Virus record (IMG/VR): IMGVR_UViG_3300037247_000810
Location: 39,460-103,459 of that record
DNA: 64,000 nucleotides
Reading direction: 5' to 3' (one strand)
Source of the DNA: a virus
Numbering within the stretch: the first letter of the stretch is position 1; each line of letters begins with the position of its first letter. A program made the translations under genes and the position numbers. Shown here piece by piece: positions 3,243 through 6,935 of the stretch. Below the pieces are notes generated by a model. It had not been told where the DNA came from and ran no database searches. It worked only from the letters and a program-made list of their open reading frames with translations.

Positions 3243-3286
3243 GTGCCGGTGGAGGGAGTCGAACCCTCTTCTTACCCTTGACCGGC
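3243..3286 (-). ncRNA. tRNA-like minihelix 1 (acceptor stem plus T arm)
   Basis: Acceptor GCCGGT/ACCGGC pairs over 6 bp, with a perfect T arm (GAGGG, loop TTCGACT, CCCTC). An 11-base linker replaces the D and anticodon arms. The 3' end is ACCG, not ACCA. It directly follows the CCA of tRNA-Thr(CGT) and precedes the 3009-3242 RNA. Confidence 0.65.
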
Positions 3287-3361
3287 TGGAGCCATCGGAG
3301 GGAATCGAACCCTCTCCTGCGGTTTACGAAACCGCTGCACAGCCACTTGTGCTTCGATGGC
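3287..3361 (-). tRNA. tRNA-Thr(CGT)
   Basis: Anticodon loop TTCGTAA reads ACG. Acceptor GCCATCG/CGATGGC is perfect, discriminator U, CCA encoded. Confidence 0.92.
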
Positions 3362-3446
3362 TGGTAGCCTCGGCGAGAGTCGAACTCGCACGCCGTTTCC
3401 GGCCGGGGCTTCTAAGACCCCTACGTCTACCATTCCGTCACGAGGC
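3362..3446 (-). tRNA. tRNA-Leu(TAG)
   Basis: Loop CTTAGAA reads CTA. The long variable arm expected of leucine tRNAs is present; discriminator A, CCA encoded. Confidence 0.9.
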
Positions 3447-3522
3447 TGGTACACCTGGTAGGAGTCGAACCTACAATCTCTCGGATGTGAACCGAGCGCC
3501 TTAGCCTTTGGGCCACAGGTGC
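3447..3522 (-). tRNA. tRNA-Val(CAC)
   Basis: Loop TTCACAT in a CTCGG/CCGAG stem reads GTG. Acceptor GCACCTG with a G-U first pair; discriminator A, CCA encoded. Confidence 0.92.
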
Positions 3523-3598
3523 TGGTGCTTCGGGACGGATTTGAACCGCCGACGCCGCGCTCTTCAGGCGCGCGCTCTACCCCTGAGCTACCGAAGCG
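3523..3598 (-). tRNA. tRNA-Phe(GAA)
   Basis: Loop CTGAAGA reads TTC. Acceptor GCTTCGG/CCGAAGC is perfect; CCA encoded. Confidence 0.92.
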
Positions 3599-3675
3599 TG
3601 GTGGGCAATACAGGACTCGAACCTGTGACCTCTGCGATGTCAACGCAGCGCTCTAGCCTGCTGAGCTAATCACCC
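3599..3675 (-). tRNA. tRNA-Val(GAC)
   Basis: Loop TTGACAT in a CTGCG/CGCAG stem reads GTC. The acceptor pairs with two G-U wobbles; CCA encoded. Confidence 0.92.
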
Positions 3676-3750
3676 TGGAGCGGAAGAAGGGACTCGAACC
3701 CTCGACATTCTCGTTGGCAACGAGACATTCTACCACTGAATTACTTCCGC
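3676..3750 (-). tRNA. tRNA-Gly(GCC)
   Basis: Loop TTGCCAA in a TCTCG/CGAGA stem reads GGC. Acceptor GCGGAAG/CTTCCGC; discriminator U as usual for glycine; CCA encoded. Confidence 0.93.
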
Positions 3751-3837
3751 TGGTGTCACCGGCGAGAGTCGAACTCGCACCCCCTTGCGGGGACAAGGCT
3801 CTCAACCTTGCATGTCTACCTGTTCCATCACGGTGAC
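3751..3837 (-). tRNA. tRNA-Leu(GAG)
   Basis: Loop TTGAGAG in a CAAGG/CCTTG stem reads CTC. Long variable hairpin (CCCC/GGGG); acceptor GTCACCG/CGGTGAC; CCA encoded. Confidence 0.92.
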
Positions 3838-3913
3838 TGGTGAACTCGGTAGGAATCGAACCTACGACATCCGACGTATCAGATCGGCGCTCTAACCCCT
3901 GAGCTACGAGTCC
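3838..3913 (-). tRNA. tRNA-Ile(GAT)
   Basis: Loop CTGATAC reads ATC. Anticodon stem CCGAT/GTCGG has one wobble; CCA encoded. Confidence 0.9.
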
Positions 3914-3989
3914 TGGTGACAGCGGGTGGACTTGAACCACCGGCCTTCGCCTTATGAGGGCGCTGCTCTACCAACTGAGCTACGCTGCC
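3914..3989 (-). tRNA. tRNA with CAT anticodon, probably elongator Met (copy A)
   Basis: Loop CTCATAA. The anticodon stem GCGCC/GGCGA lacks the three G-C pairs of an initiator and has an end mismatch, and bases 1-72 pair (G-C), so an initiator role is unlikely. Met elongator or lysidine-modified Ile are both possible. Confidence 0.88.
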
Positions 3990-4067
3990 TGGTAGCCCCA
4001 GCAGGATTCGAACCTGCGACGTTCCGCTTAAGAGGCGGCTGCTCTGGCCGGACTGAGCTATGGGGCC
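3990..4067 (-). tRNA. tRNA-Lys(CTT)
   Basis: Loop CTCTTAA reads AAG. Acceptor GGCCCCA starts with a G-U pair; CCA encoded. Confidence 0.91.
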
Positions 4068-4153
4068 TGGTGCGCAAGGAGGGAATCGAACCCTCAAACC
4101 CTAGTGGGCACACGGTTCTGAGCCGTGCGTGTTTACCGTTTCACCACTCGCGC
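4068..4153 (-). tRNA. tRNA-Leu(CAG)
   Basis: Loop CTCAGAA in a CACGG/CCGTG stem reads CTG. Long variable arm present; CCA encoded. Confidence 0.92.
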
Positions 4154-4241
4154 TGGTGGGGCAGGTAGGACTCGAACCTACGGAGACCGTTAAGGCCAGC
4201 AGGGTTACAGCCTGCCGCAATTGCCGCTATGCGACTACCCC
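4154..4241 (-). tRNA. tRNA-Tyr(GTA)
   Basis: Loop CTGTAAC in a GCAGG/CCTGC stem reads TAC. The long variable arm fits bacterial tRNA-Tyr. A two-base spacer separates it from the CCA of the next tRNA. Confidence 0.92.
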
Positions 4242-4243
4242 TT

Positions 4244-4317
4244 TGGAGACCCCGGCCGGATTCGAACCGACGATAACCGGGTTGCAGCCGGTTGCCTTAC
4301 CACTTGGCCACGGGGTC
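4244..4317 (-). tRNA. tRNA-Cys(GCA)
   Basis: Loop CTGCAAC in an ACCGG/CCGGT stem reads TGC. Acceptor GACCCCG/CGGGGTC is perfect; discriminator U, as in bacterial tRNA-Cys; CCA encoded. Confidence 0.92.
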
Positions 4318-5814: not shown

Positions 5815-5890
5815 TGGTCGGGACGGCAGGATTCTAACCTGCGATTCCGTGCTCCCAAAGCACGTGTGTTGAACACTACACTACGCCCCG
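5815..5890 (-). tRNA. tRNA-Pro(TGG), altered T loop
   Basis: Loop TTTGGGA reads CCA. C1-G72 and A73 fit proline. The T loop is TTAGAAT: the almost universal C56 is A, which should disturb the G19-C56 contact. Confidence 0.86.
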
Positions 5891-5967
5891 TGGTCGGAGT
5901 TGCAAGACTCGAACTTGCGGCCCCCGCGTCCCGAACGCGGTGCTCTTCCTGGCTGAGCTAAACTCCG
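5891..5967 (-). tRNA. tRNA-Pro(CGG)
   Basis: Loop TTCGGGA in a CCGCG/CGCGG stem reads CCG. Acceptor CGGAGTT/AACTCCG with C1-G72; CCA encoded. Confidence 0.92.
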
Positions 5968-6043
5968 TGGGGTGATCGAGGAGATTTGAACTCCCGCTAA
6001 GAGGGCCACAACCTCTTGTGCTAACCACTACACTACGACCACC
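5968..6043 (-). tRNA. tRNA-His(GTG)
   Basis: Loop TTGTGGC in an AGAGG/CCTCT stem reads CAC. Discriminator C and an extra 5' G (G-1) give the histidine identity pair. Confidence 0.92.
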
Positions 6044-6044
6044 T

Positions 6045-6118
6045 TGGAGCGCCTAGCGGGAATCGAACCCGCGAACTCTGCTTGGAAGGCAGATATGTTG
6101 CCCCTACATCACAGGCGC
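6045..6118 (-). tRNA. tRNA-Gly(TCC)
   Basis: Loop CTTCCAA in a TCTGC/GCAGA stem reads GGA and likely GGG. Discriminator U; CCA encoded. Confidence 0.92.
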
Positions 6119-6193
6119 TGGTACGGGCGGTGGGACTCGAACCCACACCGAACGGTTTAAAAGACCGCTGCTCTGCCTTCGAGCTACACCCGC
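6119..6193 (-). tRNA. tRNA-Lys(TTT)
   Basis: Loop CTTTTAA in a CGGT/ACCG stem reads AAA. Acceptor GCGGGTG with wobbles; CCA encoded. Confidence 0.91.
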
Positions 6194-6269
6194 TGGTAGC
6201 GTCGACGGGATTCGAACCCGCTCCGTCCGGTTTGAAAGACCGGCGACCTATCCTGTAGTCGACGACGCT
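6194..6269 (-). tRNA. tRNA-Glu(TTC)
   Basis: Loop CTTTCAA in a CCGGT/ACCGG stem reads GAA. Acceptor AGCGTCG/CGACGCT; CCA encoded. Confidence 0.91.
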
Positions 6270-6345
6270 TGGAGCCTTCGGCGAGATTCGAACTCGCTGC
6301 CTCGTTCTTACCAAGAACGCGCTCTACCAATTGAGCTACGAAGGC
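6270..6345 (-). tRNA. tRNA-Thr(GGT)
   Basis: Loop TTGGTAA in a CGTTC/GAACG stem reads ACC. Acceptor GCCTTCG/CGAAGGC; CCA encoded. Its 5' end lies 8 bases after the RNase P RNA 3' end. Confidence 0.92.
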
Positions 6346-6353
6346 TTGTTATC

Positions 6354-6686
6354 GAGCAATCGGGTCGTAAGCCGCTTTCTGTTTCTCTGCCTACATCTCT
6401 CTAGCTGTCACGCGGTCGCTGCCAAACTACCCGCCGCGCCTCCGGCCCCCTAACGCAATCCGTCTTTTCACACGACCTCCGTGTCTCCGGGTCTCGGCAG
6501 GCTCGGTGGCCCGCTACCCGTAGTCGCTGTTCGTGACATCTCGCCGGTCTCTTGCCCGACGGCCCGCCTTATTAGGGACGGGTAGGTTGTTTGGCGGCCG
6601 AGCGGACTTTCCTCAAGGGCCTCGTGGTGCAAACGCCTCGCGGCTCCCACCAGACGATCCTGCGTAGGCACGTCCGATTGCTCTCT
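6354..6686 (-). ncRNA. rnpB: RNase P RNA (catalytic RNA), phage-encoded
   Basis: About 333 nt. The universal core is complete on the minus strand: CR-I GAGGAAAGTCCG (6603-6614) and the 3' block ACAGAAAGCGGCTTA (6368-6382). Helix P1 is a perfect 10 bp, GAGCAATCGG (5' end, 6674-6683) with CCGATTGCTC (3' end, 6354-6363). P2 pairs TGCCTAC with GTAGGCA. P4 pairs AAG-CCGC with GCGG-CTT leaving the conserved bulged T. P3 is visible as TGGTG/CACCA. Role: the ribozyme that cuts tRNA 5' leaders. The 5' end abuts minihelix 3 and the 3' end lies just before tRNA-Thr(GGT), so it would be released from the same precursor it matures. No RnpA protein gene is seen, so the host protein is presumably used. Confidence 0.93.
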
Positions 6687-6737
6687 TGGCAGCCGGTCGC
6701 GGAATCGAACCGCACGGAGGTCAACCAGACCCCGGCT
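6687..6737 (-). ncRNA. tRNA-like minihelix 3
   Basis: Acceptor AGCCGG/CCGGCT, T arm TGCGG/CCGCG with loop TTCGATT, and a linker that itself forms GGTC-TGGTT-GACC, like a D arm. No anticodon arm. This copy keeps GCCA at its 3' end. It joins the CCA of tRNA-Arg(CCT) to the RNase P RNA. Confidence 0.7.
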
Positions 6738-6812
6738 TGGTGCCCTGAGCGGGAATCGAACCCGCATCTGCCGCTTAGGAGGCGGCTGCGCTATCCATTA
6801 CGCCATCAGGGT
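6738..6812 (-). tRNA. tRNA-Arg(CCT)
   Basis: Loop CTCCTAA in a GCCGC/GCGGC stem reads AGG. First pair may be A-C; discriminator A; CCA encoded. Confidence 0.9.
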
Positions 6813-6892
6813 TCAATAGGCATCCGTGCCGATGGCCTTCCTGGCCCCAATACCACGGCCCGCCTGAGTTAAGGCACACGGGCCGGACGGTC
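6813..6892 (-). ncRNA. Structured spacer RNA, about 80 nt
   Basis: On the minus strand GGCCCG/CGGGCC encloses GCCT/AGGC, followed by CCGTG/CACGG around a GGCC/GGCC hairpin. Two adjacent stem-loops, no tRNA domains. Preceded by minihelix 4 and followed by tRNA-Arg(CCT). Confidence 0.4.
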
Positions 6893-6935
6893 GACTGCGC
6901 GGGGATTTGACCCCATAGCGCCAAGCGCCGCAGCC
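6893..6935 (-). ncRNA. tRNA-like minihelix 4 (degenerate T loop)
   Basis: Acceptor GGCTGCG/CGCAGTC pairs over 7 bp with one wobble. A GCGC-TTG-GCGC hairpin sits where the D arm would be. The T stem is TGGGG/CCCCG but the loop is TCAAAT, one base short. 3' end GACC. Two bases from the CCA of tRNA-Arg(TCT). Confidence 0.55.

Follow-up and report, generated by a model that had tools for sequence, protein, structure and literature searches.

The stretch of DNA dealt with here (the window, 64,000 nucleotides) corresponds to bases 39,460–103,459 of a 103,459-base IMG/VR virus record (IMGVR_UViG_3300037247_000810) and contains, within a compact array of phage tRNA genes, four tRNA-like minihelices (M1–M4), each consisting of a paired acceptor stem and a T arm. 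The interpretation that we favor, to which a probability of roughly 0.55 is assigned, is that these elements are tRNA “top halves”, i.e., dummy tRNAs retained as signals for cutting by RNase P in an operon that would be processed almost wholly by this enzyme. It is built on what can be read directly from the sequence, namely the structures of the minihelices, their placement, the presence of an RNase P RNA in the same array and the conservation, accompanied by compensatory change, found in a related phage.

According to the mechanism proposed, one promoter would give rise to a single transcript carrying 42 CCA-encoding tRNAs, nearly all abutting one another. An RNase P cut at the 5′ end of a tRNA would also create the mature CCA end of the preceding tRNA so that, the CCA-bearing tRNAs being zero-spaced, each cut would double as the 3′ maturation of the RNA upstream. 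Where a non-tRNA sequence comes next (the RNase P RNA, small RNAs, an HNH gene or the end of the array), the minihelix would supply the RNase P site and release the upstream 3′ end. Cleavage would presumably be carried out by RNase P with the RNA encoded in the operon, which probably teams up with the protein subunit of the host, and would benefit the formation of the CCA ends.

All the tRNA genes of the phage lie in a single minus-strand array (3287–7310) transcribed in the direction 7310 → 3287 from one promoter. This near-consensus promoter (TTGACA-17-TATATT, 7360–7388, minus strand) matches 11 of 12 consensus positions. The 42 genes with encoded CCA comprise 40 identified by ARAGORN, all of which (40/40) have a CCA end, and two added by eye with the help of weak Rfam scores, tRNA-Trp(CCA) at 4318–4390 and tRNA-Thr(UGU) at 4781–4849. 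By manual count, there is no spacer at 33 of the 37 direct tRNA–tRNA junctions, the remaining four having spacers of 1, 2, 2 and 12 nt. When 207 arrays were scanned for the share of spacerless junctions, these exceeded one half only in the window and in two other contigs, L160 and L367. No minihelix was seen in the L367 array, so that L160 represents the sole true comparison.

The first-pass annotation had placed four minihelices lacking an anticodon arm in this array, 0–2 nt after a tRNA CCA, and sequence and fold checks found all four of them on the minus strand, with acceptor stems of 6–8 bp each. M1 (3243–3286; z-score of the fold −2.23) begins 0 nt after tRNA-Thr(CGU), the last tRNA of the array; its acceptor is GCCGGU/ACCGGC and its T arm, of 5 bp, is perfect. 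The minimum-energy fold of M1 differs from this T arm, which is still able to form. M2 (5457–5501; z −2.73), with 7/7 pairs in the acceptor and 5 bp in the T arm, and M3 (6687–6737; z −1.1), with a 6-bp acceptor and a 5-bp T arm, begin 0 nt after tRNA-Asp and tRNA-Arg(CCU), respectively. M4 (6889–6936; −24.7 kcal/mol, z −2.75) begins 1–2 nt after tRNA-Arg(UCU) and has an 8-bp acceptor, which was of 7 bp in the register adopted by the first-pass annotation. The T arms of M1–M3 are canonical (5 bp, TTCGANT loop) and that of M4 consists of a 4–5 bp stem with a loop shortened to 6 nt. In the place of the D and anticodon arms, between acceptor and T arm, M2–M4 have an extra hairpin of 3–4 bp, not resolved in M1, whose loop reads UGGU in M2, UGGUU in M3 and GGGU in the L160 counterpart of M3; by analogy with mascRNA (PMC11693755), this hairpin may be a miniature D arm providing elbow guanines.

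As to the 3′ ends, the earlier statement that none of them keeps CCA is contradicted by M3, which ends in GCCA, and holds for M1, M2 and M4, even though M1 and M4 keep ACC. A 3′ R-C-C triplet is present in three of the four (ACC in M1, GCC in M3, ACC in M4) and has been lost from M2, which ends in ACA(G). The pairing of the R-C-C located 3′ of the acceptor with L15 of the RNase P RNA is a recognition rule of the enzyme (PMC10731613), and a minimal RNase P substrate consists of ~12 bp of coaxial stems followed by this triplet. M1, M3 and M4, with 11–13 bp, correspond to such a substrate, whereas M2 has the stems but ACA in place of R-C-C. On the other hand, none of the minihelices, being 44–51 nt long and devoid of an anticodon arm, is called as a functional tRNA by ARAGORN or by the Rfam tRNA model. 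No gene for a CCA-adding enzyme and none for RnpA was found in the 103,459-base record, a finding that, like the retention of R-C-C in three of the four minihelices and their starts at 0, 0, 0 and 1–2 nt from a CCA, speaks for a role in RNase P processing.

The placement of the minihelices is far from random. In the array of the window a minihelix is found at four of the five non-tRNA inserts and at none of the 37 direct tRNA–tRNA junctions (Fisher p = 4.5e-5); when window and L160 are pooled the value becomes 3.4e-6, the two arrays being related and hence not fully independent. A non-tRNA RNA adjoins all four minihelices of the window and two of the three intact ones of L160; the third, the counterpart of M4, lies between tRNAs. 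A pattern describing a T arm a short distance after a CCA end has three matches in the window against 0 expected, and a structural scan of the whole record found, outside the tRNAs, only M1, M2 and M3, since M4 escapes it owing to its 6-nt T loop. In dinucleotide-shuffled sequences, a minihelix-type start appeared in 2–4 of 3000 shuffles per insert (~1e-3).

These data bear on an alternative according to which the minihelices are relics, that is, tRNA genes whose D and anticodon arms were deleted and which persist, without a role, beside decayed sequence. T-arm fragments behind tRNAs are indeed common in phage arrays: a broad T-arm pattern run on IMG/VR returned, among the matches listed, mostly fragments without acceptor stem, and few loci with a T arm after CCA keep the acceptor. 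Furthermore, M2 has lost its R-C-C, M4 has a damaged T loop, M1 shows erosion in L160, and two CCA-ended minihelices of other contigs (L125:2718-2773 and L107:2611-2663) sit between tRNAs. Nevertheless, decay without a role is considered unlikely, because the acceptor stems of all four window minihelices are paired, with a shuffle rate of ~1e-3 for each, their adjacency to non-tRNA inserts is far from random and, as described below, the acceptor of M4, altered at five positions, is paired again and the small hairpin of M3 has replaced a G-C by a U-A pair.

The first-pass annotation had described the sequence following each minihelix as a structured non-tRNA RNA. In the case of the insert that follows M3, its nature had been overlooked; the RNA behind M2 is only modestly structured (z −2.2), as is that behind M4 (z −1.4). 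The insert of 330 nt that begins where M3 stops and extends to tRNA-Thr(GGU) (6352–6683, minus strand) is, judged from its conserved core, an RNase P RNA, divergent and bacterial type A-like, and is predicted to be catalytic. The match to RF00010 scores 26 bits (E 1.1e-7, whole genome) and, because this is far below the gathering cut-off of 100 bits, the RNA is missed at the default Rfam threshold. Its core comprises a 10-bp P1, a P4 helix that retains the bulged U, and the segments GAGGAAAGUCC, ACAGAAAGCGGCUUA and GCGGGUAGU, the landmarks being CR-I at 6614–6604, CR-V at 6382–6368 and, at 6434–6426, the GGU-containing GCGGGUAGU, a segment resembling that of L15. Like the bacterial type A RNA, it thus displays P1, the bulged U of P4, CR-I, CR-V and the GGU segment; unlike it, it is phage-encoded, very divergent, not accompanied by RnpA and situated inside a tRNA array.

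The related contig L160 (IMGVR_UViG_3300017530_000053, 28,214 bases) was recovered by searching for T arms that lie shortly after a CCA end. Its proteins are collinear with those of the window phage, with mostly 45–88% identity, and its array is syntenic and shorter, with the same zero spacing and with homologous promoter and leader. A search for minihelices at the same junctions in a relative, the check that the first-pass annotation had put forward, found M3 and M4 conserved. The M3 ortholog (L160:3823-3871), whose small hairpin contains the G-C → U-A change mentioned above, occupies the same junction and ends in ACCA; behind it lies an RNase P RNA clearly homologous to that of the window (L160:3481-3822). 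In the RNase P RNA homolog, which the Rfam type A model does not recognize, P1 has a largely different sequence with complete pairing, and P4 keeps its bulged U while a G-C pair has become A-U, a compensatory change that alters the almost universal CR-I, here reading GGGAAAAAUCC. The M4 ortholog (M4′, L160:3949-3996) follows the same tRNA-Arg(UCU). Five of the seven acceptor pairs differ between the two phages, four of them on both sides, all are still paired, and the T stem contains one further double change. As the changes are compensatory and pairing is intact, the comparison provides good evidence that selection acts on the fold of M4 rather than on its sequence. L160 also has an additional CCA-ended minihelix, M5′, with 6/7 acceptor pairs. 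It stands behind the RNase P RNA, at the place taken directly by tRNA-Thr in the window, and is followed by an HNH endonuclease gene (PHROG HNH, E 7.7e-25), as a punctuation role would predict.

A cut at the 5′ end of a minihelix would leave it joined to the RNA that follows, and in both phages the RNase P RNA is joined at its 5′ end to the CCA-bearing M3. The minihelices might hence be 5′ domains of the following RNAs, acting as protective caps or, in the case of M3, as a tethered product-like element positioning or regulating the RNase P RNA. That M4′ is backed only by a tRNA, that M5′ precedes an HNH gene and that the other phage RNase P RNAs inspected have no minihelix renders this explanation improbable. 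Also quite unlikely is a function as stand-alone small RNAs with some other role, for instance as decoys or donors for host enzymes that bind tRNA. Complete tRNA-like 3′ ends are found on M3, its L160 ortholog and M5′, a 13-nt segment of M4, GGCGCUUGGCGCU, is identical in both phages, and M4′, 48 nt long, stands by itself with a tRNA on either side; against such a function, M1, M2 and M4 have no CCA, the position beside inserts would be left without explanation and, by reading, the G3-U70 pair of the alanine minihelix occurs in none of them.

Several observations weigh against the punctuation role. Within the window, M2 is without R-C-C, M4 has a 6-nt T loop, and the insert at 5579–5663 has no T-arm minihelix. 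The inserts following M1, M2 and M4 are candidate functional RNAs without homologs in L160, where M4′ (48 nt including A-CTC) abuts tRNA-Arg(CCU), so that no punctuation is needed there; M4′ may be a leftover or, alternatively, the insert behind M4 may have been newly gained in the window. M1′ of L160 keeps its acceptor (GUCGGU/ACCGGC) and has lost its T arm, and for M5′ (z +0.5) the fold of lowest energy is a different one. The minihelices of L125 and L107 lie between tRNAs, and in the other RNase P RNA-bearing viral arrays inspected a tRNA, and not a minihelix, precedes the RNase P RNA, some of these RNAs having a promoter of their own instead. Finally, the 3′ ends might be trimmed in any case by exonucleases of the host. 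The proposal of the first-pass annotation that the minihelices are processing punctuation is therefore retained only in part: it accords with their distribution over inserts and junctions, with M3 and M5′ of L160 and with the compensation in M4, and is at odds with M4′, M1′ and the other arrays.

As far as their working is concerned, the closest analogs appear to be the t-elements of plant mitochondria and mascRNA. The t-elements are tRNA-like sequences, other than tRNAs, found beside non-tRNA RNAs, whose ends are set by RNase P and RNase Z cuts (PMC11658184). The non-working tRNA-like elements of the window likewise adjoin non-tRNA RNAs; unlike the t-elements, which are organellar, have typical tRNA-like folds and depend on RNase Z and CCA addition, they are phage-borne, have no anticodon arm and belong to a zero-spaced CCA-encoding array, and homology is not claimed. 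In the case of mascRNA/menRNA of MALAT1/NEAT1 (RF01684), RNase P cuts at the 5′ end of the element and thereby forms the 3′ end of the preceding RNA (PMC11693755). The acceptor stem, the T arm and the reduced D arm are shared features, whereas mascRNA belongs to mammalian nuclear long non-coding RNAs, has a longer anticodon-equivalent stem and receives its CCA after RNase Z action; the likeness is one of function and shape, without homology being shown, and M4 is the only one of the four listed by the RF01684 model, with 27.9 bits against a cut-off of 42.5. In the mitochondrial tRNA punctuation model, to which PMC10941002 refers, cuts at tRNA boundaries set the RNA ends of a polycistronic transcript; there the marks are real tRNAs, whereas in the window dummy tRNAs would stand where no tRNA comes next. 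The nearest idea from phages concerns the theta ribozymes of gut phages, RNA elements behind tRNAs that have been proposed to cut tRNA 3′ trailers (PMC10879173) and hence, like the minihelices, to set 3′ ends. They differ in being self-cleaving, hepatitis delta virus (HDV)-like and located mostly behind tRNAs without encoded CCA, the window elements being putative RNase P substrates; no HDV-type family is present among the Rfam matches to E = 10 in the region 2700–7500.

Minihelices are also found at the end of the arrays of L117 and L084, at +1 nt, and at +4 to +5 nt in L005/L072, L113 and L165/L188; their placement is only suggestive, as they came from a search aimed at such elements. Separately, L058, L078, L085, L096, L097, L115 and others share a recurring TTTAGGATAC(A/T)TACAGCAA...GTTGGTTCGATTCCAAC just behind a tRNA CCA, which has a T arm and no acceptor pairing.

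Further RNase P RNAs were sought in IMG/VR with patterns of core motifs and were found in 37 other contigs, each with an RF00010 E ≤ 1e-3 and 19 of them above the Rfam cut-off, bringing to 38 the viral contigs with such an RNA (the window, L123, L125, L126 and L224–L257), mostly within tRNA arrays. The set includes the near-duplicates L225/L230, L238/L247 and L248/L253 as well as L236, L246 and L256, which have no nearby tRNAs and are possibly misassigned bacterial or plasmid DNA. By manual count, the fetched stretch contains at least five tRNAs in at least 28 of the 37, and in 22 of these contigs a tRNA begins 13–23 nt behind CR-V. An RnpA gene was seen in none of the 37, many of which are fragmentary. 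In the L125 group there is a promoter-like sequence at the tRNA/RNase P RNA junction. A blastn comparison of four phage RNase P RNAs with GenBank phages gave no match except a Salmonella genome record contained in the collection. The open-access literature yielded no report of a phage-encoded RNase P RNA, subscription papers lying outside the search, so that priority is not established. Dozens of viral RNase P RNA genes are thus apparently unreported so far, a by-product that may be of greater weight than the minihelices themselves.

The RNase P RNA of the window also contains, at 6615–6660, a hairpin (GUGGGAGCCGCRAGGCGNNNGNACCAC) that, in the bacterial genomes searched, occurs only in the rnpB-like genes of Chloroflexales (L371–L374), where it sits in the opposite half of the molecule; the sharing of this motif is a possible lead to the host.

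The remaining inserts, all on the minus strand, are an unassigned RNA of ~76 nt after M4 (6813–6888; z −1.44), absent from L160; a long hairpin of ~85 nt after M2 (5369–5453; z −2.19); the tRNA-sized insert between tRNA-Met and tRNA-Asp (5579–5663; z −0.42), whose ends GCCCUU/AAGGGC are followed by ACC; and, after M1, an array-terminal RNA of ~260 nt (2978–3242) with a predicted fold and no credible Rfam match, closed by a G+C-rich hairpin (3009–2983) that is likely a terminator. For the RNA behind M1, the T arm had suggested a tmRNA or permuted tmRNA, which was rejected for want of Rfam support at that site; signal recognition particle RNA and 6S RNA were likewise rejected for the other inserts, for which there was no Rfam match.

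The phage itself is, on its predicted gene content, a tailed phage, because the window has genes for the large subunit of the terminase (PHROG E 2.5e-31), for a DNA polymerase, for a UvsX-like recombinase and for a single-strand binding protein. With the terminase as anchor no related IMG/VR locus was found and GenBank phages gave distant matches only, and the array itself, compared with the same phages by blastn, gave only pieces spanning one or few tRNAs. The 42 tRNAs cover nearly every sense codon, an almost full decoding set in a ~100 kb phage. tRNA-Arg(UCU) (6938–7007), just before M4, is only 70 nt long, has a poor D arm and is unreported by the Rfam tRNA model. The 12-nt spacer GAAGCGGUGCCA (4940–4951) duplicates the tRNA-Arg(UCG)/tRNA-Ser(GCU) junction and resembles a tandem duplication, and an MmcB-like putative DNA repair protein (1992–2657; PF06319, E 2.2e-12) adjoins the array.

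A more far-reaching version of the punctuation role, put forward here tentatively and regarded as rather doubtful, is that of an operon equipped with its own RNase P ribozyme, a near-complete tRNA set and dummy-tRNA marks, in which RNase P alone would yield more than 45 RNAs from a single transcript; M3 would be a cis-tethered substrate, and an early act of the ribozyme would be to free the 5′ neighbor of its own RNA. If the minihelices are indeed RNase P signals, the 3′-end maturation of phage tRNAs would have been reduced to a single enzyme through the removal of almost all spacers and the use of dummy tRNAs at places where a tRNA does not come next, the phage would be independent of the multi-step 3′ trimming of the host, and the array would represent a naturally occurring collection of minimal RNase P substrates. 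Together with the dozens of viral RNase P RNAs, the window makes testable the idea that phages import a catalytic RNA for their tRNA arrays, to work with the protein of the host.

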